Shown: one piece after another, positions 53,924-64,000 of the stretch
Position numbering within the stretch: the stretch's first letter is position 1
How the letters are laid out: each line of letters starts with the position of its first letter
Assembly: GCF_003234565.1 (NCBI RefSeq)
Contig: NZ_QKTU01000002.1
Coordinates: 1 to 64,000 of the forward strand
Direction: 5' to 3'
DNA: 64,000 nt
Source: Curtobacterium sp. MCBD17_013
Lineage (GTDB): Bacteria; Actinomycetota; Actinomycetes; Actinomycetales; Microbacteriaceae
The notes under the pieces: generated by a model
Databases searched by the model: none
What the model was told of the DNA's origin: nothing
The model's input: only the letters and a program-made list of their open reading frames with translations
Translations under genes and position numbers: made by a program

Positions 53924-54226
53924 ATGACCGACGAGACCACGCACCACCACGGGTACATCTCCGCGAAGGACGACTACCTGAAACGGCTCCGGCGCATCGA
54001 GGGGCAGGCGCGCGGCCTGCAGCGGATGGTCGACGAGGAGCAGTACTGCATCGACATCCTGACCCAGGTCTCCGCGATGACGAAGGCCCTGCAGTCGGTC
54101 GCCCTCGGACTGCTCGACGACCACCTCGCGCACTGCGTCGCCGACGCCGTCGCGGAGGGCGGTGATGCCGCGGACGAGCGCATCCGAGAGGCATCGGCGG
54201 CGATCGCGCGACTCGTGCGCTCCTGA
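53924..54226 (+). CDS. csoR: CsoR-family copper-sensing repressor
   Basis: 100-aa all-helical metal-sensitive repressor. Cu(I) ligands fit the C-H-C pattern: Cys in EEQYCIDIL, then HLAHC (HxxxC). GGGAGG lies 7 nt before ATG 53924. Divergent from copZ-copA with the operator at 53872-53886 between them. A His-rich N-terminus (TTHHHGY) is extra to the core domain. Confidence 0.92.
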   Translation: MTDETTHHHGYISAKDDYLKRLRRIEGQARGLQRMVDEEQYCIDILTQVSAMTKALQSVALGLLDDHLAHCVADAVAEGGDAADERIREASAAIARLVRS

Positions 54227-54272
54227 TCGGGCGCGGCCGCCGGTGACGGTGGTGCTCCCTACGCTGCAGTCC

Positions 54273-55184
54273 GTGGCCGAACCGGTGGGTGTGTGGTGGG
54301 CGCGACGGCAGTGGTCGCGCGGGCGCGACGTGCCCTACGCCGTCGGTGAGTTCCGCGAGGCATGGCGTTCCTTCCCGGTCCTCGTGCGCCAGTACCACCC
54401 CGACCGCAACAGCGGCATCGTCCTTAGCCAGATCCCGCCCGCCGCCGACGTCTTCCTGTGTTGGGAGTGTGACGCCGGCCACGTGTTCGTCGCCACACCG
54501 AGCGAACAGCGGTCCCGTCCCGGCCGGGAGCGCCGGCGGTCCTCGTGGTGTCCCGAGTGTGCCGCGCAAGCCCGACCCCGCGGACCGCTGACCCTGCTGC
54601 ACCCCGCCGTGGTGTCGGCCACGGGTCGGGGCGGGGTCACCGGGCCGGCATCCGACGCACCACGTGCGCCCGCTCCGCTCGCGACGCGTCCGGCTCGACC
54701 CACACGTCGTGGCCGGGACGTCTGCACCCGGACCCCCGACCTCCCGGCGGGGACCCCGTTCCGCAGTGCGTGCGCCCCGCGCCCGGCGTCCGCGGTGGAG
54801 GCGCAGCTGCGTGCCGACCTCCGCGCGCGGCTCGAGCACACCGAGGGCGACAACGCGGTGCGTCTCGCCCGACCCTTCTTCGACCACCTCGAGGCGTGGC
54901 CCGACGTCGTGCTCCCGGAGCTCCGCGTCGCGATCGAGTACGACTCGACGGGACGCCACGGTCTCGAGCACGTGGGCCGCCGTGAGGACGCCGACCGCCG
55001 GAAGGACCGTGCCCTCCGAGCCGCGGGGTGGGAGGTCATCCGCATCCGGACCGGACGGCTCCCGGCACTCGGGCCGCACGACATCGAGGCCGGCGGGTGG
55101 TCCCGGCGGACGCTCGCCCGGCTCGTGGACGAACTGCGGGCGGTGCGCGGGGACCTGCTCGTCGACGCCTACCTGCGCGACTGA
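54273..55184 (+). CDS. Zinc-ribbon protein with C-terminal endonuclease-like domain
   Basis: 303-aa protein. The N-terminal part carries two CxxC pairs (CWECDAGHVF and CPECAA), as in DUF4379-type treble-clef zinc ribbons. The C-terminal region (about 180-300) resembles a Vsr/DUF559-like PD-(D/E)xK nuclease fold: acidic PDVVLPELRVAIEYDS followed by RKDRALRAAGWEVIRIRTG. The start is leaderless: TACGCT (54260-54265), 7 nt, GTG 54273. Might act in DNA repair or mobile-element defence; no partner is evident except the convergent GIY-YIG gene. Confidence 0.75.
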   Translation: MAEPVGVWWARRQWSRGRDVPYAVGEFREAWRSFPVLVRQYHPDRNSGIVLSQIPPAADVFLCWECDAGHVFVATPSEQRSRPGRERRRSSWCPECAAQARPRGPLTLLHPAVVSATGRGGVTGPASDAPRAPAPLATRPARPTRRGRDVCTRTPDLPAGTPFRSACAPRPASAVEAQLRADLRARLEHTEGDNAVRLARPFFDHLEAWPDVVLPELRVAIEYDSTGRHGLEHVGRREDADRRKDRALRAAGWEVIRIRTGRLPALGPHDIEAGGWSRRTLARLVDELRAVRGDLLVDAYLRD

Positions 55185-55214
55185 CACCGGGCACGGTCCG
55201 CACGGGGCCCGAGA

Positions 55215-55841
55215 TCAGGTCCGGAGCGCGACGGCCTCGCTCACCCAGCGCGTGTAGAGGTCCCACGGCGCCGGCTGGCCGTCCGTCACGCGGCCGACGT
55301 GCTGGCGGAGGTCGTCCTCGATCCTGAACCACTCCGACCCGGGGTACCGCAGGTGCGCGAACCGGTGGTGTCGGGCGCGTTCCAGGGCGCGCCCACCCCG
55401 TTCGAACCCGAGGAGTTCCTCGTGCCAGAGCCGGGCGAGCCGCTGGCGGGGGTTGGCGGAGGTGCCGATCTTGATGCGCTCCTCGAAGCGGATGTAGTAG
55501 ACCACGTCGACGCGTGGCGGACGTGCCTCGCCGTCGGGCACCGCCCCGACGCGCCACTCGCACACCCCGCAGACCCACCCAGACGGATACCGCACGCCGG
55601 TCCGTGCTCCGCAGGCGGCGCACGGCGCGGGGAGGACGTCGTCGACACCGCCCGTGGCGCCGGCCCACTCGGCCGCCACGGCCAGGTGCTGCGCGCAGAG
55701 CGCGACGGGCGCGTCCGGAGGGACCGGGCGGCGGCAGGACGAGCCGCACACCGGACCCGCACAGGCGGCCGCTCGTGTTCCCAGCGAGCGTCGCGCGGCG
55801 GTCCCGTGGCCACGGTCGTCGATCCCGTCGTGGTTCGTCAC
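55215..55841 (-). CDS. GIY-YIG/T5orf172-like nuclease-domain protein
   Basis: 208-aa protein. Residues 25-105 hold several Cys pairs (CGACGAR region: CAACGARTG, CGVCEWR), a zinc-ribbon-like part. The C-terminal part has VVYYIRFEERIKIGTSANPRQ, a GIY-YIG/MUG113-type core with conserved KIGTS arginine region, and PGSEWFRI with the catalytic-type glutamate. Leaderless start: TACCGT, 6 nt, GTG 55841. Convergent with the zinc-ribbon nuclease-like gene. Confidence 0.72.
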   Translation of the reverse strand: MTNHDGIDDRGHGTAARRSLGTRAAACAGPVCGSSCRRPVPPDAPVALCAQHLAVAAEWAGATGGVDDVLPAPCAACGARTGVRYPSGWVCGVCEWRVGAVPDGEARPPRVDVVYYIRFEERIKIGTSANPRQRLARLWHEELLGFERGGRALERARHHRFAHLRYPGSEWFRIEDDLRQHVGRVTDGQPAPWDLYTRWVSEAVALRT

Positions 55842-56001
55842 CCTCGCACGGTACGGCGGACCCCCGACGCGACGGCGCTCCCGCACCCGATGTGCACGGC
55901 ACGGCGGTCCGTTCCACTCCGCTCGGAAATGGCTGGGAATCGGATTGCCGTACGGAGTCCAGGAAGGCCGACTCCCGCGGAAACACGGGGACCGGGAAAG
56001 C

Positions 56002-56042
56002 ATACCGAGTATCCTTTTCCTGAACCATGCTCACGCATGGTT
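56002..56042 (+). promoter_or_regulatory. Palindromic promoter region of the RraB-like gene
   Basis: ATAC-CGA-GTAT (56002-56012) lies within an AT-richer patch containing a -10 candidate TATCCT (56010-56015). Shortly after, AACCATG-CTCACG-CATGGTT (56023-56042) forms a 7-bp stem that includes ATG 56027. CATACCGA also resembles half of an ArpA/ScbR-type site. Function unproven. Confidence 0.35.
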
Positions 56043-56449
56043 GTATGACGGCCATGGGGAAGATCTGGGAGTTCGGTCGGCGCACGAGCGGCAGCGCGGG
56101 GGAGGCGCTCCTCACCGCCGCTGACCGCGCGTCGCTCGCGACCGTGTCGGGCGCGGTCACCACGGCACGACCGTGGTTGCACTTCTGGTACTGCGACACC
56201 GAGCGGGACGCCCGAGCAGCGGCCGACCGCATGCGCGAGTCCGGATGGGGCATCCGTCGCCTCGGCCGGGCCGTCGGTGAGGACGGATGGGCCGTGATCG
56301 CGGTCCGCACCGTCTCCGTGATCGACGAACGCACGGTGTCCGACGCCCGGCGGTTCTTCACCGACCTGGCCCGTCACCACCACGGTGACTACGACGGCTG
56401 GGAGTACGGCGTCGACGCGCCCGCTCCCTCGCATGCACTTCGGCTCTGA
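56027..56449 (+). CDS. RraB-like ribonuclease regulator family protein
   Basis: 140-aa small cytosolic protein resembling the RNase E inhibitor RraB domain: WLHFWYCDTERDARAAADRM in the middle and HHHGDYDGWEYGV at the C-terminus. Three in-frame starts exist (56027, 56045, 56054); ATG 56054 gives the conserved-looking MGKIWEFGRR. I report the longest; the first ATG lies inside a 7-bp stem-loop (56023-56042). RNase E control in this organism is inference from family name. Confidence 0.7.
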   Translation: MLTHGCMTAMGKIWEFGRRTSGSAGEALLTAADRASLATVSGAVTTARPWLHFWYCDTERDARAAADRMRESGWGIRRLGRAVGEDGWAVIAVRTVSVIDERTVSDARRFFTDLARHHHGDYDGWEYGVDAPAPSHALRL

Positions 56450-56601
56450 CGACGACGTCGACCGACCACGACACCGCTGATCGCGACCGGGCCCGAGGCG
56501 GCCGCGCGCGGCGGGGAGCACGGCGCCGGGAGGTCCTCCGGCGCCGACACGCGGAAGCGGCGGCGCGCACACCGCGCCGCCGCTTCCCTACGCTGTCCCT
56601 C

Positions 56602-57240
56602 GTGCAGCTGTTCCTGATCCGCCACGGGGAGACCCCCACGAACGTCGTCAAGCGCCTCGAGACCCGCGTCCCGGGTCCGGACCTCACCCCGACGGGACGC
56701 GAGCAGGCCGACGCCCTCGCGGCATCGTTCGTGAGCCGCAGGCTGGACGCCGTCTACGTCTCACCGCTCGTCCGGACGCACCAGACCGCGGCCCCGCTCC
56801 TCCAAGGGCGTGACCTGGTCGCGGTGGAACTCCCGGGCCTGCTCGAGATCGAGGCGGGTGAGCTCGAGGGTCACGACGACCGTGCCGCCGTCGAGCGGTA
56901 CCACGGCACGATCGGTGCGTGGGTCGCGGGGGACCTCGACCGTGCGATGCCCGGCGCCATCACGGGCCGCACCTTCCTCGACCGATTCGACGGTGCAGTG
57001 GAGCGCATCGCGACCGCCGGCGACGAGGTCGTGGTCGCCGTGAGCTCGGGCGCGGCCATCCGGGCGTGGGTCGGCCTCCGGGTGGACAACGTGGACCTCG
57101 CGTTCGTGGCCGACCACGTCCTCGGCAACACGGGTGTCGTCGAGCTCCAGGGGTCACCGGACGACGGGTGGACCTGCGTCGCCTGGGAGGGTGCCGGAGT
57201 GACCGCGGGCGCGACCGACGCGGCCGGTGGCGTCATCTGA
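56602..57240 (+). CDS. Histidine phosphatase family protein
   Basis: 212-aa cytosolic phosphatase with intact motifs: LIRHGETPTN near residue 5, SPLVRTHQTAAPL near 55, and VVAVSSGAAIRAWV, in which the second catalytic histidine seems replaced (SSGA instead of SHG). The start is leaderless: TACGCT (56589-56594), 7 nt, GTG 56602. Monocistronic; ends before the strong hairpin at 57343-57379. Substrate unknown. It lies upstream of the autoregulator cassette, but a role there would be speculation. Confidence 0.82.
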   Translation: MQLFLIRHGETPTNVVKRLETRVPGPDLTPTGREQADALAASFVSRRLDAVYVSPLVRTHQTAAPLLQGRDLVAVELPGLLEIEAGELEGHDDRAAVERYHGTIGAWVAGDLDRAMPGAITGRTFLDRFDGAVERIATAGDEVVVAVSSGAAIRAWVGLRVDNVDLAFVADHVLGNTGVVELQGSPDDGWTCVAWEGAGVTAGATDAAGGVI

Positions 57241-57342
57241 CCGTGGCTGGCGGGATCTGACGACGGTCGGAGACCACGCCTCGGCGACCCATGCCGCGCC
57301 TCCCGGCCGACGCCGCCCCCGACCCGAGTCGATGAGCGTGGA

Positions 57343-57379
57343 GAGGGTCCGGGCGCGACCCGAACGCACCCGGACCCTC
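57343..57379. terminator. Strong 11-bp stem-loop between convergent genes
   Basis: GAGGGTCCGGG (57343-57353) pairs perfectly with CCCGGACCCTC (57369-57379) around a 15-nt loop. It lies in the 326-bp gap (57241-57566) between the phosphatase and membrane-protein stops; I see no gene in the rest of the gap. Confidence 0.65.
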
Positions 57380-57566
57380 CGGTGCCCGGCGTCGCGACGT
57401 GCGACGGGGCGTCCACGCGGACGATCGCGCCATGACCCGAACACGGCTCGGTCGCCCTGTGGGCCCGCCTGGTGGCGGGCTGGTCCAGTGTCGATCGCGG
57501 TCCCGACGGGTGCAGGGGGGAAGCATCCACCAGGAGCGCGTGCATGACCGACGCTGGAGGTCTGGC

Positions 57567-58163
57567 TCACGGCACGGGCCGACCCTTCCGTCGGCGCTGC
57601 CGGAGGACGACAGCGCCGACCGCGGCCTGGAGCAACCCTGCGGCGACCGCGGCGAACGGAGCGAGGTGCCCCGTGGACGGCGCGAGCGCGAGGAGTCCGG
57701 ACGCCGCGGTGGCGGCGCCGATCGCGGCGACGACGACCGAGATGCGGCGTGGTGTCGCAGCGACCCTCCGCACGACGACGGCGGCTGTCACCGCCGCGGC
57801 TCCCGCCGTCACCATGAGGCCGGCCTCCACGACCCCGGCCGACGCGATCGGCGGCGAGGGCAGCAGCGGCACGACCCCGACCAGGAGGCCGGCGCCGCCG
57901 AACACGGCGAACGAGACCCGCCCGATCCACGACCCACGGACGGCGTCCCATGCGCCGCCGTCGCCGAACCCGAGCACGAACGCGGCCATGAAGGTCGCGG
58001 CACCACCGAGCATCGCGAACGACGCCTGACCGGACGGTCCGGTGGGACCGCCGGTGGGACCGGCGAGCTGGGCGATGACGCTGGGCAGGGCGCCCACCAC
58101 CAGCGCGGTGCCACCGAGGAGCATCGTGCTGCTCCGCGGTGCGGTGACGCGCGCTGTGGTCAT
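57567..58163 (-). CDS. Membrane protein with about six helices, unknown family
   Basis: 198-aa hydrophobic protein: helices around TMLLGGTALVVGALPSVIAQL, FAMLGGAATFMAAFVLGFG, FAVFGGAGLLVGVVPLLP, AGLMVTAGAAAVTAAVVV, ISVVVAAIGAATAASGLLAL and VAAGLLQAAVGAVVL. The C-terminus is basic (RQRRRKGRPVP). ATG 58163 follows CCGGAG by 5 nt. It is divergent from the ScbA-like gene and shares the promoter region with the ARE-like palindrome at 58265-58287, so it may belong to the autoregulator regulon. Confidence 0.65.
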   Translation of the reverse strand: MTTARVTAPRSSTMLLGGTALVVGALPSVIAQLAGPTGGPTGPSGQASFAMLGGAATFMAAFVLGFGDGGAWDAVRGSWIGRVSFAVFGGAGLLVGVVPLLPSPPIASAGVVEAGLMVTAGAAAVTAAVVVRRVAATPRRISVVVAAIGAATAASGLLALAPSTGHLAPFAAVAAGLLQAAVGAVVLRQRRRKGRPVP

Positions 58164-58264
58164 GTCGGCTCCGGGTCGGTCGGCGGTGGACGGGGACGAC
58201 GCCGGTACCACCCCTGAGACCACGACACCGGTGCCGTTCCGTCCGATCACCAGCAGCGTAACGG

Positions 58265-58287
58265 CAAAACCGTACTGTTGGGTATGC
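58265..58287. promoter_or_regulatory. Candidate autoregulatory element (ARE-like palindrome)
   Basis: Left half CAAAACCGTAC (58265-58275) and right half GTTGGGTATGC (58277-58287) share the inverted pattern A-ACC---AC-GT---GGT-T. Each half agrees at about 8 of 11 positions with the ArpA/ScbR-type half-site (GGYCGGTWYGK). It lies in the divergent gap 58164-58600 that contains no convincing gene, beside minus-strand -10 TACGCT (58260-58255) and a plus-strand TATGCT (58283-58288). This is the place where an ScbR-type receptor would act. Confidence 0.45.
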
Positions 58288-58600
58288 TTCTTGGCCCCAC
58301 TCCGGGGGTGTCGGTCCGGCGGCGCTCGGGGAGGACGGGGGTTCGACCCCAAAACGGGGGACGCAGCCCGTCCCCGTGTACCGCTCCGCCCATGGACCGG
58401 GCAGGCGCGGACCCCGGACGGCGGGACGTCCCGCTCCTCGCGATCCGCGGCACTCCGGGCGCGCGGGCAGCACGACGGCGAGGGCGTGGTGCCGCACGAC
58501 ACGCGTCGTGTACCCCGCGCGAGGTGCACGTCGCCGTCGGGGCGGCGCGACCGTGTGGAACGGGTGGTGTCGCGACGGACCGCTGCCCCATACGATGCTC

Positions 58601-59536
58601 ATGACCGCCACCGAACGTACGTCCAGTACGCGAACCCGAGAGACCGACCTGTCCCCTCACGCGCATCTCCTCCCGGGAGCCCTGGTGCACCGCCGTCAGC
58701 TGACGGAGGTGCTGCTCACTGCGCTCGAGCGGACGAGCGACAGCACCTTCGTGGCGGACGTGCACTGGCCGAGGCGGCACGCGTACTTCGGACCGTGGGG
58801 CACGGACGACGTCGCCGTCGGACCCGCGCTCGCGCTCGAGACGCTCCGTCAGACCGCGATCGCACTCGCGCACCTGCACCTCGGGGTGCCGTTCGGACAG
58901 GCGTTCGTGATGGAGTCGATGCGCGTCGAGGTCGCCGACGACGCGGTCCGCCGCTCCGACCGCCCCGGATCGCCGACCATCGACGTCGTGGTCTCGGAGC
59001 TCGTCGAGCGCAAGGGCGTCGCCGCGTCCTACGACTCGATGCTCACGGTCCGCGACGGCGACCACGTCCTCGCCCGCGGGGGCGGTCGTGCCCGCACCAT
59101 CCCCGGACCCGTGTACCGCCGGATGCGCGAGGGCGCGCCGTCCTCAGCGGACGTCGATCGCCTGCCGCCTCGCCCGAGTCCGGCCGCGCACGGGCTGGTG
59201 GGCGCGCCGACGCCGGACTTCGTCCTGCTGTCCGGTGCCGCGGGCAGCGACGCGTTCGAGCTCTCGCTCGACGCCACGAACCCGGTGTACTTCGACCACC
59301 CGCTCGACCACGTGCCGGGCATGGTCGTGCTCGAGGCCGCGCTGCAGGCCTTCCGCGCCCACGCGGACGATCCGACGCACACGCCCCGCGAGGTCACGGT
59401 CGAGTTCCTCGCCCACGCGGAGCTCACGAGTCCCGTGACGATCACGCTCGAGCGCGAGGACGGCACCGAGGTCGCGGTCCTGTGCCAGGACGGCGTCGTC
59501 GTGTCGCGCGTCCGCGCCTCCGCCTTCCCCGGCTGA
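58601..59536 (+). CDS. ScbA/AfsA-type gamma-butyrolactone synthase-like protein
   Basis: 311-aa protein with two hotdog domains of the A-factor synthase family, which joins a beta-ketoacyl chain to dihydroxyacetone phosphate as first step of gamma-butyrolactone signals. Domain 1 has HAYFGPW and ETLRQTAIALAHLHLGVPFG with E80; domain 2 has FDHPLDHVPGM (231-241) and E245. The position of the essential domain-2 arginine of ScbA (in EAxRQ) reads EAALQ, Leu248. Length fits the family. ATG 58601 is used; ATG 58595 is two codons earlier. Convergent with the ScbR-like receptor gene. The product could be an atypical lactone or butenolide. Confidence 0.88.
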   Translation: MTATERTSSTRTRETDLSPHAHLLPGALVHRRQLTEVLLTALERTSDSTFVADVHWPRRHAYFGPWGTDDVAVGPALALETLRQTAIALAHLHLGVPFGQAFVMESMRVEVADDAVRRSDRPGSPTIDVVVSELVERKGVAASYDSMLTVRDGDHVLARGGGRARTIPGPVYRRMREGAPSSADVDRLPPRPSPAAHGLVGAPTPDFVLLSGAAGSDAFELSLDATNPVYFDHPLDHVPGMVVLEAALQAFRAHADDPTHTPREVTVEFLAHAELTSPVTITLEREDGTEVAVLCQDGVVVSRVRASAFPG

Positions 59537-59676
59537 GTCGCACTGCCCCGCTGAGCGGCACTGCCCAGCTGAGCGGCACTGCCCAGCTGAGCGGCACTGT
59601 CCGGCTGAGCGGCACTGCCCGGCCTCGTCGCACCGCCCGGCCGAGCCGCACCGCCCGACAGAGCGGTGCCGTGGGG
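59533..59676. repeat. 18-bp tandem repeat, eight units, filling the scbA/scbR gap
   Basis: Consensus CTGAGCGGCACTGCCCAG. Units 1-5 (59533-59622) are nearly identical; units 6-8 diverge. The first unit contains the ScbA-like stop codon, and each of units 1-5 repeats TGA in the same frame. The array ends 7 bp before the ScbR-like stop. No other copy is seen in the window. Confidence 0.9.
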
Positions 59677-59683
59677 CGTGCGG

Positions 59684-60328
59684 TCAGACCGCCGAACGCA
59701 TGATGCGGGCCGGGAGGTCCGCCACGAGCGGCTGCCGCTCGGCCGGCACGAGCGCGGGGATGAGCAACATCGTCCACATGTTCTCGAGCTGCTGGAAGAG
59801 GTCCTCGCGGCTGTGCAGGATGTCCGAGACGAGCTGCACGCCCGTGTACGCGGGGATGAGGAACGCCGCCAGGCGCGTGGGGTCCACGTCGGCGCGGATG
59901 TCGCCCTCCTCGACCGCCGCCGCGATGAGCCCCTCGACCGTGTGGATCCAGCCCGCGTACGGCGCCTCGCGCTCGAGACCGTTGCCGCCGGCCTCGGTGG
60001 TGAGCCGCACCCCGGCGGACACGACGACCTCGTCCTTCATCTGCTGGGCGAAGGTCTGCGACATCCACATCATCCGCTCGAGCGCGGTGCGTCCGAGCAG
60101 GAACACCCGCTCGCCGTACGACTGCGCGATCTCGTACTGCAGCTCGATGACCGCGTTCGCCACCTCCTCCTTCGACTTGAAGTGGTGGTAGAGCGCACCC
60201 TTGGTGACGCCCGCCTCCGAGGCGACGACGTCGAGCGACGCGTTCGCGTACCCGCGCTGCTCGAAGATCGTCGCGGCGCTCCGGACGATCTTGTCGCGCG
60301 TGACGACGGCGCGCTCCTGCTGGGCCAT
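59684..60328 (-). CDS. ScbR/ArpA-type autoregulator receptor (TetR family)
   Basis: 214-aa TetR-family repressor of the gamma-butyrolactone receptor group. HTH residues about 28-50 (SLDVVASEAGVTKGALYHHF, then KSKEEVANAV) match ScbR/ArpA closely. The ligand domain keeps VSAGVRLTTEAGG and ends with VDPTRLAAFLIPAYTGVQLV; W127 sits where ArpA/CprB have the ligand-pocket tryptophan. ATG 60328 is preceded by GGAGGGG. It should repress target promoters until a lactone binds. Divergent from the reductase-like gene, convergent with the synthase gene. Confidence 0.9.
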   Translation of the reverse strand: MAQQERAVVTRDKIVRSAATIFEQRGYANASLDVVASEAGVTKGALYHHFKSKEEVANAVIELQYEIAQSYGERVFLLGRTALERMMWMSQTFAQQMKDEVVVSAGVRLTTEAGGNGLEREAPYAGWIHTVEGLIAAAVEEGDIRADVDPTRLAAFLIPAYTGVQLVSDILHSREDLFQQLENMWTMLLIPALVPAERQPLVADLPARIMRSAV

Positions 60329-60428
60329 GGTGTCCCCTCCGACTCCCAACGGCCCCGACGGCCGCTCCGACATGGTAGCCACGCTCAGGTCCTGTTACCG
60401 TCCGCACGACACCCCTCGACGTGAATGG

Positions 60429-61349
60429 ATGGCCCCCAGCGTGCAATCGTCCCCCGAAATGTCCTCCTCGCTGTCCTCCTCGACACCTGTCGCGGTGACC
60501 GGTCCGCTCGGGTTCATCGGGCGACGCGTCGTCGACGCGCTCGTGGCGGAGGCCGTGCCGGTCCGCGGTCTCGTGCGTCGTGCGGTGCCCGAGAACGCCG
60601 CCTTCTCCCCGGTGTCCGGGGACCTGCTCGACCCGGAGGCCGTGGCCCGCCTGGTCGCGGGTGTGCAGACCGTCGTGCACAGCGCGGTCGCGATCGGCGG
60701 GGACGACGACGCCGTCCGCCGCACGAACGTGGACGGCACGCGCATCGTCGTCGAGGCGGCGGCCGAGGCAGGAGCGCGCGTGGTCCTGGTGTCCACCGCG
60801 GCGGTGTTCGGCTCCGGGCCGCACCGGGGCGGTCCGCGTCCGGGTGCGAGGCCCGAGTCCGCGACCTCCGTGAGCCGTGCGGAGGCGGAGCGGTTGGTCC
60901 TCGGAGCTGGCGGAGCCGTCGTCCGCCCGAACGTCGTCCACGGGGTGGGGGACCGATGGGTGTTCCCGTCGGCGCTGCGCCTCGTCACGGCCGTGGGGGC
61001 GGTTCCGGACACCGAGGCGCGGGTGAGCGTCGTGCACGTCCGGACACTCGGCCGCCGCATCGCGGCCGCCGCCCTCACGCGCGCATCGGGCGTCGTCCCC
61101 GTCCACACCGATCCGCCCGTGGCCGCGGGCGAGGTCGTGGTCACCGCCGCCGAGGTGCTCGGCCGCTCCCTGCCCCCGGTCGTGTCGGTGGAGGAGTTCC
61201 GCGATCGCGCCGCCGGTCGGGGTCTCAGCTCCCACCAACTCGCGATGCTGCTCGACGACGCGTGGTTCGACGTCGCCGACCCGGAGCCACTCGGCACGCT
61301 CGAGCTCGACGCCGAGGACCGCGACTGGTACCGGTCCCTCGCGGGGTGA
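60429..61349 (+). CDS. NAD-dependent epimerase/reductase-like protein of the autoregulator cassette
   Basis: 306-aa extended SDR protein. The Rossmann motif is VTGPLGFIGRR near residue 23 and the family block VNVDGT-like NVDGTRIVVEAAAEAGA near 98, followed by VSTAAVFGSGP. The catalytic YxxxK is not evident: the aligned segment reads SATSVSRAEAE, without Tyr and with Arg for Lys. Streptomyces cassettes pair afsA homologues with reductases for the lactone ring (BprA-type), so a ring-reducing or epimerising role is likely, but the altered site leaves it open. ATG 60429 is used; ATG 60459 is possible. Confidence 0.75.
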   Translation: MAPSVQSSPEMSSSLSSSTPVAVTGPLGFIGRRVVDALVAEAVPVRGLVRRAVPENAAFSPVSGDLLDPEAVARLVAGVQTVVHSAVAIGGDDDAVRRTNVDGTRIVVEAAAEAGARVVLVSTAAVFGSGPHRGGPRPGARPESATSVSRAEAERLVLGAGGAVVRPNVVHGVGDRWVFPSALRLVTAVGAVPDTEARVSVVHVRTLGRRIAAAALTRASGVVPVHTDPPVAAGEVVVTAAEVLGRSLPPVVSVEEFRDRAAGRGLSSHQLAMLLDDAWFDVADPEPLGTLELDAEDRDWYRSLAG

Positions 61350-61361
61350 ATCCGGCCGGCG

Positions 61362-63071
61362 TCACTCGCGACGCCGGGCCAGCGCCGCGTCGATCGCGGT
61401 CGCGCCGAGGGACACCACGGCGACCACCACGAGCACCCAGCCCGCCGCCGCCGGGGTCAGCGCGCCGGGGTGGACGGGTCGCGGGACCGCCAGGAACACG
61501 ACCGCCGTGATGCCCGCGAGCGCCCCGAGCACCGTCCAGACCGTTCGACGGACCAGACCGGCGACCAGGCGTCGGTCGCGTCGGTCGGCGAGCACACGCA
61601 CGTTCACGTTGAGGTGACCGGTCTCGAGGGCTTCCCCGATGCGGTCGACGCGGCGGGGCAGGCGCCGGAGTCCGGGCAGCACCGCGAGTGCCTCACGGAC
61701 GAGGAGGTCCCGGACCCCGGCGGGGGTCGCCTGGTCCCGGATCTGGTCGCGGGCGAGCGTCCGGGCCTCCTCGAGCAGGTCGAACGCGGGCGTGACGGTG
61801 CGTAGCGTGCCCTCGAGGATCGCGAACGCCCGGGCGGCCGCGACGAACTCCGCGGGGACCGCCATGCCGTAGCGGCCGAAGACCTCGACGGCGGCGTCGA
61901 CCGTGTCGATCCCGATGCGGGCTCCGGGTCCGAGCTCGTCGACGACGAACGTCGCGATGTCCCGTCGGAACGCCGGTTCGTCCACGGGGTCGGCGAGCGG
62001 GGCGAGCCGGAGCACCCCGTCGGCGATGCCGCGCGTGTCGGACTGCAGGTAGGCGACGAGCAGTTCCTGGACGGTCTCGCGCAGGGTGAGGTCGAGCCTC
62101 CCGACCGATCCGAAGTCGACGAGCGCCGGCCGCCCGTCGGGCATGACGAGGATGTTGCCGGGGTGCAGGTCCGCGTGGAAGACCCCGTCGACGACCACCT
62201 GCCGGATGAAGGCGCGGACCACGGTCCGCATCAGTGGTTCCAGCGACGCGGTGTCGGCCCCGTCCGCGCGGGCCGTCGCGAGCGTACGACCGTCGAGGAA
62301 CTCCATGACGAGCACGCGGCGGGAGCTCAGCTCGTCGACGAGCTCGGGCAGGTGGAGTTCCGCGGCACGACGACTGCGCGCCTGCGTCGCGCGGAGTGCG
62401 GCGAGGTTCGTCGCCTCGCGGCCGAAGTCGACCTGCCGCACGAGGTCCGTCGCGTACTGGGCCGCGGCGTCCTCCACCCCGAGCCGACGTGCCTGGGCGG
62501 AGGTGCGCGCGAGGAACCGGGTGACCCGCAGGGCGATGTCGACGTCGCGGCGGATCACGACCGCGACGCCGGGTCGCTGCACCTTGACCGCGACGGTCCG
62601 GCCGTCCCGGAGGCGGGCACGGTGGACCTGCGCGATCGACGCGGCCGCGACCGGGACGGGATCGAACGCGGCGAACACCTCGTCGACGGGCGCACCGAGC
62701 TCCTCACGGAGGAGGGCCGCGACCGCGTCGGCCGGCGCGGGGGTGACGTCCTCCTGGAGATCGGCGAGGGCGGCGCGCCACTCGTCCGGCAGCAGGTCGT
62801 CACGCGTCGAGAGCAGCTGACCGATCTTGACGAACGCGCCGCCGGCCTCCTCGAGTGCGCGCCGCAACCCGGTCGCCTGCTCGACCCGGAGACCGGCCGT
62901 TCCCGGGGACCGCGAGAAGTCGAGGCGGCCGAACGGCAGCAGCCCGTTGCGCCGAGCGATGCCGAGCAGCTCCGCGAACCGGCGAGCACGGTCGCGGAGC
63001 GTCCCCGTCGCGGTGTCGTCGCCCTGGGCGAGGTCGGCCAGGCGCGGCAGGGTCGCTCGTCGGTCCGTCAA
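61362..63071 (-). CDS. AarF/UbiB/ABC1-type kinase-like protein
   Basis: 569-aa protein of the UbiB atypical kinase family. Motifs: KxGQ in GGAFVKIGQLLSTRDDLLP, AAASIAQVHRA, VAVKVQRPG, HADLHPGNILV and DFGSVG. Two C-terminal helices (TVLGALAGITAVVFLAV and GWVLVVVAVVSLGATA) anchor it to the membrane. Start TTG 63071 is preceded 6 nt by CAGGAT; GTG 63101 is an alternative. These proteins support quinone or lipid metabolism; menaquinone is the likely quinone here, inferred from lineage. Confidence 0.88.
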   Translation of the reverse strand: MTDRRATLPRLADLAQGDDTATGTLRDRARRFAELLGIARRNGLLPFGRLDFSRSPGTAGLRVEQATGLRRALEEAGGAFVKIGQLLSTRDDLLPDEWRAALADLQEDVTPAPADAVAALLREELGAPVDEVFAAFDPVPVAAASIAQVHRARLRDGRTVAVKVQRPGVAVVIRRDVDIALRVTRFLARTSAQARRLGVEDAAAQYATDLVRQVDFGREATNLAALRATQARSRRAAELHLPELVDELSSRRVLVMEFLDGRTLATARADGADTASLEPLMRTVVRAFIRQVVVDGVFHADLHPGNILVMPDGRPALVDFGSVGRLDLTLRETVQELLVAYLQSDTRGIADGVLRLAPLADPVDEPAFRRDIATFVVDELGPGARIGIDTVDAAVEVFGRYGMAVPAEFVAAARAFAILEGTLRTVTPAFDLLEEARTLARDQIRDQATPAGVRDLLVREALAVLPGLRRLPRRVDRIGEALETGHLNVNVRVLADRRDRRLVAGLVRRTVWTVLGALAGITAVVFLAVPRPVHPGALTPAAAGWVLVVVAVVSLGATAIDAALARRRE

Positions 63072-63105
63072 GACCCGATCCTGGACCGCGACCCTGAGCA
63101 CGGAC

Positions 63106-63153
63106 GACACGGCGCAGCGGCGACACGGCGCAGCGGCGACACGGCGCACCGGC
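63106..63153. repeat. 16-bp tandem repeat, three units
   Basis: GACACGGCGCAGCGGC occurs at 63106-63121, 63122-63137 and 63138-63153 (one substitution), then a partial GACAC. It lies in the divergent region of the UbiB-like and PRC-barrel genes, just upstream of both promoters. Confidence 0.8.
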
Positions 63154-63227
63154 GACACGACGCCCGCACCGGGACTACCGTCTGCGGCACCGCGCCCGAA
63201 TCGTTCCGGCGCGGGGAGAGGAACGAC

Positions 63228-63584
63228 GTGTTCGAGGCCGAGAACATCCGCGACTGGATCGGGCAGCCGGTCGTCGACGCCGGCGACGACCGGATCGGCA
63301 GCCTGGAGAGCATCTACTTCGACACCGCGACGTCGCAGCCGGCGTTCGCGAGCGTCCAGATCGGTCTGATCGGTCGGCAGCGACTCGTGTTCGTGCCCCT
63401 CGACGGCGCCACCGTGTCGCCCAAGCACCTCAAGGTGACCTACGACAAGAAGCTCGTCAAGGACGCGCCGTCCATCGACACCGACGGCGAGCTCGAGGCG
63501 TCGGTCGAACCGACGCTGTACCAGCACTACGGCCTCGTGTACCAGGCCGGTGCGGGCGGCGAACGGCGACTCGGGCGCCGCTGA
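63228..63584 (+). CDS. PRC-barrel domain protein
   Basis: 118-aa cytosolic protein. The PRC barrel covers about residues 1-85 (IRDWIGQPVVDAGDDRIGSL, VQIGLIGRQRLVFVPLDGATV), with a C-terminal acidic tail (DTDGELEASVEPTLYQHYG). GTG 63228 has GGAGAGGA 7 nt before it. Proteins of this kind are frequent stress-related small proteins in actinobacteria. A perfect 11-bp terminator stem follows (63594-63652). Confidence 0.85.
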   Translation: MFEAENIRDWIGQPVVDAGDDRIGSLESIYFDTATSQPAFASVQIGLIGRQRLVFVPLDGATVSPKHLKVTYDKKLVKDAPSIDTDGELEASVEPTLYQHYGLVYQAGAGGERRLGRR

Positions 63585-63593
63585 CCCCGACGA

Positions 63594-63652
63594 CCGTCGA
63601 GCGGGCCCTGGACGTCCCCCCACATCGGCACGTCCATCCGGCCGCTCGACGG
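63594..63652 (+). terminator. Long stem-loop after PRC-barrel gene
   Basis: CCGTCGAGCGG (63594-63604) pairs perfectly with CCGCTCGACGG (63642-63652), with an inner GGACGT (63610-63615) / ACGTCC (63630-63635) stem. It starts 10 nt after the stop codon. The remaining bases to 63775 hold only the promoter of the next gene. Confidence 0.65.
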
Positions 63653-63775
63653 CCGTCGCACGGCCGGAGCCGCGCCTGTGCTCGAAGTCTCCCACAGGAC
63701 GCCCGTCCTGGGAAATCGACGGGAACCAGGCCGGGGCGGCGTCCCTCATCGCTCCTGCCACTACGGTGGTCTGCC

Positions 63776-64000
63776 ATGGGCATGCGTGAGGACCAACGCC
63801 GACGCACGAGGGACGCCATCCTCGAGGCCGCAGCCCTGGAATTCGGGGAACGCGGCTACCAGGCGACGACCTACGCCTCGGTAGCGGCCAGGGCGCAGGT
63901 GGCGAAGAGCCTCGTCAGCTACCACTTCGCGTCGAAGACCGACATGGTCCAGGCGATCATGGACGTGTCCTTCACGCAGGAGGGCGTGTTCGCCGCGCTG
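63776..64000 (+). CDS. TetR-family regulator, N-terminal part only
   Basis: First 75 residues of a TetR-type regulator cut by the window edge. The HTH is clear: RRRTRDAILEAAALEFGERG followed by YQATTYASVAARAQVAKSLVSYHF, then ASKTDMVQAIMD. It lacks the GVTKGALYHHF signature of the ScbR-like receptor, so it is from a different subgroup. A TACGGT box lies 8 nt before ATG 63776. Ligand domain and targets are off-window. Confidence 0.85.
   Translation, partial: MGMREDQRRRTRDAILEAAALEFGERGYQATTYASVAARAQVAKSLVSYHFASKTDMVQAIMDVSFTQEGVFAAL

Follow-up and report, generated by a model that had tools for sequence, protein, structure and literature searches.

In Rhodococcus, the receptor gene gblR lies between gblA and gblE, which have the opposite orientation, and deletion of gblA in R. 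jostii abolished a gamma-butyrolactone (GBL)-like signal, as described in PMC5735094. According to the same paper, GblE is a homolog of JadW2, which is essential in Streptomyces venezuelae and whose step is called unclear. Here we describe a locus of this kind in Curtobacterium sp. MCBD17_013, a member of the Microbacteriaceae. The sequence studied was a 64-kb stretch (the window) of a 3.39-Mb genome in 38 contigs. An initial annotation of the window had proposed a GBL-type autoregulator cassette outside its classical host group. Our analysis indicates that the window probably carries an apparently intact cassette of this type with the gblA-gblR-gblE layout, whose mechanism we describe by analogy. 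The cassette is real, but its location outside the classical hosts is not new, the nearest layout being of the Rhodococcus/JadW type. Since gblA-gblR-gblE of Rhodococcus has been described (PMC5735094), this is a known kind of cassette, already described outside Streptomyces.

In the literature searched, we found no experimentally shown butyrolactone signal in Microbacteriaceae, and mentions came from genome mining only. PMC7438953 places butyrolactone clusters, found by genome mining, among the types that each occur in <10% of 70 Microbacterium genomes. PMC4748050 gives a putative N-acyl-homoserine lactone (AHL) signal for Leifsonia and LuxR homologs for Clavibacter, with GBL for neither in the available part of that paper. 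Gamma-butyrolactones were sought in extracts of 36 deep-sea isolates in PMC12239160, whose available text does not specify the positive isolates. The available parts of PMC6155160 and PMC4255298 contain nothing on butyrolactone signalling in Microbacteriaceae. Below, genomes, contigs and loci of our samples carry G, C and L numbers.

Results

Organization of the cassette

The cassette spans 58595-61349 and encodes a synthase, an ScbR-type receptor and an NAD-epimerase-like protein, and all three open reading frames (ORFs) are open (Table 1). The genes are adjacent and lie where the initial annotation had put them, as seen from the ORFs and from Pfam matches to AfsA, TetR and Epimerase. The start given there, 58164, is the beginning of an intergenic region and not a gene start, the synthase gene starting at 58595 or 58601. 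gblA and gblR are convergent while gblR and gblE are divergent, with gblR between the other two and on the opposite strand to both, which is the layout described in PMC5735094. Family membership, gene linkage, intact motifs and an operator-like dyad were established in this analysis, and the assignment of the window to the Microbacteriaceae was supported.

Like the cassette of R. jostii RHA1 as described in PMC5735094, that of Curtobacterium contains the same three families with the same placement and orientation of gblR, gblC and gblD are not in the cluster, and the flanking genes are not conserved. R. jostii belongs to another family, and the cassette is found there in virtually all genomes studied, whereas a small minority of sampled Microbacteriaceae genomes have one. 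The JadW1-JadR2-JadW2 system of S. venezuelae is likened by its description in PMC5735094, GblE matching JadW2 by name; it differs in that JadW3 is listed there, and reading the called genes of the window by eye showed no antibiotic cluster. ScbA/ScbR of S. coelicolor and AfsA/ArpA of S. griseus belong to the same synthase and receptor families by equivalog cut-offs. In contrast to these systems, the window has GblE instead of ScbB/ScbC, and its receptor falls outside the eight Streptomyces receptors compared (approximately unbiased (AU) test, p 0.013).

The synthase GblA

Profile searches of the synthase and the receptor had been set beforehand as a test, and both proteins passed the ScbA/BarX and ScbR equivalog cut-offs. 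GblA scored 219.4 bits against NF041195 (ScbA/BarX; cut-off 200, 5.7e-65), aligning with positions 3-280 of the 290-position profile. Two hotdog domains with the motif FDHPLDHVPGM had been read from the sequence; the motif is present, and PF03756 (AfsA) matches GblA in two stretches. Residues E80, R83, Q84, H91, D232, H233, D236, H237 and E274 (counted from the start at 58601) are each common to at least 19 of 21 aligned rows. The gblA locus is the only AfsA match in its own genome, and there are 0 differences between it and the copy of the conspecific G295. A PDB sequence search for a solved relative of the synthase gave 0 matches. Lactone-precursor synthesis is the predicted activity of GblA.

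The receptor GblR and its ligand pocket

GblR scored 192.9 bits against NF041196 (ScbR equivalog; cut-off 150, 6.3e-57) and alone passes this cut-off among the 41 TetR-type matches of its genome. It has the Pfam domains TetR_N and TetR_C_45, and the helix-turn-helix motif GVTKGALYHHF noted at the outset is present. By sequence, its PDB relatives are 6srn (the best, 127 bits), 5xaz, 6wp7 and 1ui5, and the likeness to MmfR and AvaR1 (6srn, 6wp7/6wp9) consists of the receptor family and the pocket Trp. As given in PMC12442216, the pocket of AvaR1 has Trp127, Val158, Phe161 and Thr162 and that of MmfR (6SRN), with the ligand MMF2, has Trp147, Val178 and Phe181; the pocket Trp and Thr are named there for AvaR1 and BarA. 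Alignment puts W127 (numbered from MAQQ), I158, Y161 and T162 of GblR at these positions. W127 is aligned to residue 147 of 6srn, the pocket Trp of MmfR in PMC12442216, which agrees with its initial assignment to the ligand pocket. GblR differs from AvaR1 and MmfR in I158 and Y161, where that paper gives Val and Phe, and T162 is as in AvaR1, whereas 6srn has Phe182 at this alignment position.

All 27 aligned rows, two TetR paralogs among them, have the pocket Trp, and 20, the window included, have Thr162. Ile158 was found in 10 of the 27 rows, all from Microbacteriaceae and all in one tree branch (85/78); the eleventh row of this branch, G558 from another family, lacks it. Five further Microbacteriaceae receptors, which fall outside the branch, carry Val or Thr at position 158. 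Between GblR genes of the window and G295 there are 4 synonymous and 0 nonsynonymous changes.

AfsA-type enzymes feed lactone, furan and butenolide signals. A related other signal for the same receptor class, either a 2-alkyl-4-hydroxymethylfuran carboxylate (MMF type) or a butenolide, could be the product of the locus. The best solved relative of GblR, which is MmfR with MMF2 according to PMC12442216, points in this direction. Thr at position 162, which AvaR1 and BarA share and where 6srn has Phe, suggests a lactone rather than a furan ligand, and the presence of a gblE gene likewise argues against an MMF-type signal. We consider such a signal unlikely; the class of the ligand (lactone rather than furan or butenolide) is the chief uncertainty in reading the locus as a GBL cassette.

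Two TetR paralogs, 55% identical to each other, are encoded at 63776-64465 (contig C12, running past the window) and at 65304-65978 of contig C37. Against the ScbR model they rank second and third in their own genome. Across the 66 genus genomes this species alone has both, and three others have one match each (48, 32 and 30%). Both retain the pocket Trp, carry V or A in place of Thr162 and differ in the recognition helix, and they could be pseudo-receptors.

The third gene, gblE

GblE matched PF01370 (Epimerase) at 5.8e-17, and among the NCBIfam matches listed none was over its cut-off. A Gly-rich NAD(P) motif and a Rossmann fold are present, and the predicted model has the fold of a short-chain dehydrogenase/reductase (SDR). 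The fold matches of this model were nearly tied, with ordinary enzymes such as NSDHL and cinnamoyl-CoA reductase among them, and 48 of 296 residues had a predicted local distance difference test (pLDDT) score <50, including residues 115-136 just before the family signature PxSxxSx[ST]R; the model therefore names a fold and not a function. T and R stand at the columns of the catalytic Tyr-x-x-x-Lys, and Tyr and Lys are both absent in 24 of 24 aligned GblE-type sequences. Because the family is without these catalytic residues, the description of the third gene as SDR reductase-like is doubtful, and we call it GblE-type. Homologs of GblE encoded next to ScbA/ScbR, on Streptomyces plasmids and in Gordonia, have the same signature. 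Compared with G295, gblE has 4 synonymous and 1 nonsynonymous changes. The signature makes the question of the GblE/JadW2 step testable, for which an ordinary ketoreductase assay alone is not enough.

A candidate operator upstream of gblA

The dyad AAACCGTACTGTTGGGTAT, upstream of gblA, is the sole site in the 64 kb with at most 1 mismatch in 12 half-site positions at spacers of 5-8 bp. A comparable site was held by 15 of 2000 shuffles of the 437-bp intergenic region, and we regard the dyad as a candidate operator. Other stretches of the same genome, 149 kb together, contain 6 comparable sites, the six stretches in which they lie having been fetched because of them. The dyad is identical in G295. 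Sites with at most 1 mismatch were found in 6 of 23 afsA upstream regions, namely those of the window, Cryobacterium (L028), Gordonia (L030), G238 (L055), G192 (L059) and Leifsonia (L029), the Gordonia site being perfect.

The small membrane-protein-like gene on the other side of the dyad starts ~100 bp from it. Its product has no Pfam match, and among the loci searched a homolog was found in the conspecific G295 only (0 synonymous, 2 nonsynonymous changes). Co-regulation of this gene with gblA is possible.

Distribution and linkage

The synthase model matched 20 of 299 genomes in the family sample (7 over the cut-off), 4 of 66 in the genus sample (two of the four being one species), 6 of 297 in the order sample (1 over the cut-off, the window's own genome) and 64 of 394 in the class sample (44 over the cut-off). 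Each count includes the window's own genome; nothing was matched in 14 control genomes. We compared 22 Microbacteriaceae synthase loci (the window, L051-L070 and L028), in which the stretches other than the window were 12.9-20.8 kb long and three genomes gave two loci each. The family matches L017, L020, L021 and L022 were left out, and L029, on the same contig as L056, was counted once. An ScbR-like gene was present in the stretch at 19 of these loci, at four of them >1 kb from the synthase gene, and a GblE-like gene at 12. Linkage across relatives, the other test set beforehand, was kept, with the same order and orientation of all three genes at 9 of the 22. From 57 and 98 records with GblE-like matches, 11 Streptomyces plasmid regions around such matches were selected, and ScbA or ScbR is annotated in 10 of them.

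These loci bear on whether the AfsA-like enzyme might make a non-hormone metabolite, the TetR gene being a local regulator. AfsA-like domains reportedly take part in antifungal polyketide release in other bacteria, there are papers on AfsA beyond signalling (PMC7756420, PMC7426152), and 3 of the 22 family loci have a synthase and no ScbR-like gene in the stretch. Yet an equivalog-level receptor adjoins an equivalog-level synthase here, the linkage is conserved across family loci, and no polyketide-synthase gene was seen when the genes called in the window were read by eye. We regard a non-hormone product as very improbable.

The sparse distribution in the family and the genus would also fit a decaying or borrowed cassette whose signalling has been lost, as would the in-frame TGA in the copy of the relative G192. 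Against this stand the three open ORFs of the window, the conserved synthase motifs and the few nonsynonymous changes relative to G295 (the counts being small), and loss of signalling seems to us extremely improbable for the window. The TGA of G192 lies in its synthase gene (L010, C16:224156-224998), and the cassette of that genome may be decaying.

The neighbouring UbiB-like gene occurs in all 66 genus genomes. Definition of an empty site was attempted and dropped, the flanks being unmatched in 8 congeners except for two ORFs beyond UbiB in G318.

Relationships of gblA and gblR

In the AfsA tree (31 rows), the window falls with the congeners G321/G322 and G201 in a group of five rows (support 96/96). 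Nine Microbacteriaceae rows make up a group with 87/85, and nine Streptomyces rows are united separately (99/97). The five-row group was not recovered in the ScbR tree. The best BLAST match of gblA among the compared rows is a Streptomyces plasmid synthase (39%, 156 bits), while Microbacteriaceae rows of other species reach at most 36% and 123 bits. Forcing gblA together with the nine Streptomyces rows was not rejected (p-AU 0.287). Because gblA groups with Microbacteriaceae in the tree and yet the Streptomyces grouping was not rejected, we claim no origin for it, a Streptomyces origin included. A very recent import is unlikely, since no compared row of another species is >39% identical in gblA.

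The nearest rows of gblR are from Microbacteriaceae (51-53% identity). Forcing it together with 8 Streptomyces receptors, a group named after the tree was seen, was rejected (p-AU 0.0134). Judged by its sequence, the receptor belongs to a Microbacteriaceae receptor lineage and not to that of Streptomyces.

Searches for a regulon

Operator searches of the window's own genome and 10 relatives did not find the regulon and gave weak leads only. The pattern AWACCG-N6-CGGTWT with at most 2 mismatches was found at 89 places in the own genome vs 27 for the reversed pattern; because the reversed control does not keep the CpG-rich halves, we do not read this excess as a regulon. When no more than 1 mismatch was allowed, the pattern was found at 73 places in the 10 cassette-bearing relatives vs 55 for the reversed control (summed).

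One lead is an autoregulatory element (ARE)-like site at C8:12551, which stops 10 bp short of the ATG of a gene for a camelysin-like secreted protein (PF12389, E=0.003) and is overlapped by an earlier in-frame ATG. This gene and a signal-peptidase-like gene (L103:7551-9199 on contig C8), both below Pfam cut-offs, are divergent from a MarR gene. The camelysin/SipW-like operon is a weak lead as a target. The single perfect site, C6:47671, near a secreted-protein/signal-peptidase-like operon, was dropped as a target because visual inspection shows it overlapping a hairpin directly behind the upstream gene and because it resembles ATACCGACCAGCCGGTAT. In G188 and G274, ATACCGACCAGCCGGTAT lies between another TetR gene and a gene resembling a major facilitator superfamily (MFS) exporter (by eye), and the same sequence occurs in G073. 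At L136 and L137 the site between another TetR gene and an MFS-exporter-like gene is ATACCGGCTGGTCGGTAT (or GTACC...), which pattern searches can mistake for a butyrolactone operator.

The search of the relatives returned 18 loci and all were viewed, six of them (L129, L131, L133, L139, L141 and L142) without a called gene, the gene finder being tuned to high GC. Two arrangements recurred among the 18. One is the TetR/exporter pair, at 2 loci, and the other is an ARE-like site next to a FabG-like reductase gene, at 3 loci (L134, L143 and L144, in G182, G073 and G188). In two of these three, the opposite flank carries a small membrane-protein gene. The second arrangement may be an ordinary conserved promoter.

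These observations can be combined into a Microbacteriaceae hormone lineage of its own. It would have a pocket retuned by Ile158 and a distinct ligand. GblE would be a pseudo-SDR performing an essential, possibly non-redox step through the invariant Ser/Ser/Arg, and the targets would be surface proteins (such as the SipW/camelysin-like operon of C8) and not antibiotics. We hold this to be improbable, and lowered our estimate because the origin of gblA is unsettled and because of the recount of Ile158.

Other features of the window

An 18-bp tandem array of 7.7 copies occupies 59528-59666, in the gap where gblA and gblR converge, and is found with changes in G295 as well. The butyrolactone pathway requires an unspecific phosphatase. 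A histidine phosphatase gene is located at 56602-57240, 1.4 kb upstream of gblA, and nothing ties it to the pathway. From ~5400 to 37000 the window contains an apparent large purine/allantoin degradation island, with genes read by eye as guanine deaminase, xanthine dehydrogenase, allantoinase, urate oxidase, hydroxyisourate hydrolase and a transporter. An Rfam scan of 54000-64000 gave 0 matches, and no tRNA was found in the 64 kb.

Table 1. Features of the GBL-type cassette region in the window
Feature	Position	Strand	Basis
gblA, AfsA/ScbA/BarX-type synthase, two hotdog domains	58595 or 58601 to 59536	+	NF041195, PF03756, conserved residues
gblR, ScbR/ArpA-type TetR receptor	59684-60328 (longer start at 60382 possible)	-	NF041196, PDB relatives, pocket positions
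gblE, NAD-epimerase-like (atypical SDR) protein	60429 or 60459 to 61349	+	PF01370, signature, model fold
Candidate receptor operator, ARE-like dyad AAACCGTACTGTTGGGTAT, spacer 7	58267-58285		pattern search, shuffles; putative site
Small membrane-protein-like gene, transcribed away from gblA on the far side of the candidate operator	57567-58163	-	ORF

Discussion

By analogy with the described systems, GblA would condense a beta-ketoacyl chain with a glycerol-derived C3 unit, as expected from its family. GblE, with housekeeping enzymes, may then complete the signal, at the step that PMC5735094 calls unclear. GblR bound to the dyad would repress gblA and perhaps also the divergent membrane-protein gene. 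A lactone in the W127/T162 pocket would release GblR, and this release would produce density-dependent positive feedback.

Several points weigh against a functional GBL cassette of this kind. The score of GblA is low for its model (219 bits vs up to 387 in the class sample), and the protein is on a long branch in the AfsA tree. Of the 66 genus genomes, 62 lack the synthase gene, which is therefore dispensable. As for the operator, 17 of the 23 afsA upstream regions are without a site of at most 1 mismatch, those of the congeners G321/G322 and G201 included. The spacer of the dyad is 7 bp vs 6 in its clearest relatives, and when read at spacer 6 the dyad has 3 mismatches, no better than shuffles (20/60). 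No comparable operator-like site was found by gblR/gblE. The pattern AWACM-N9-KGTWT, whose one match in the own genome is the gblA dyad, and another operator pattern were written after the dyad was seen.

With these points counted, a GBL-type autoregulator cassette is still the reading that we consider probable for the locus. The Microbacteriaceae would then offer a small-genome actinobacterial family in which to ask what butyrolactone signalling does without adjoining antibiotic clusters.

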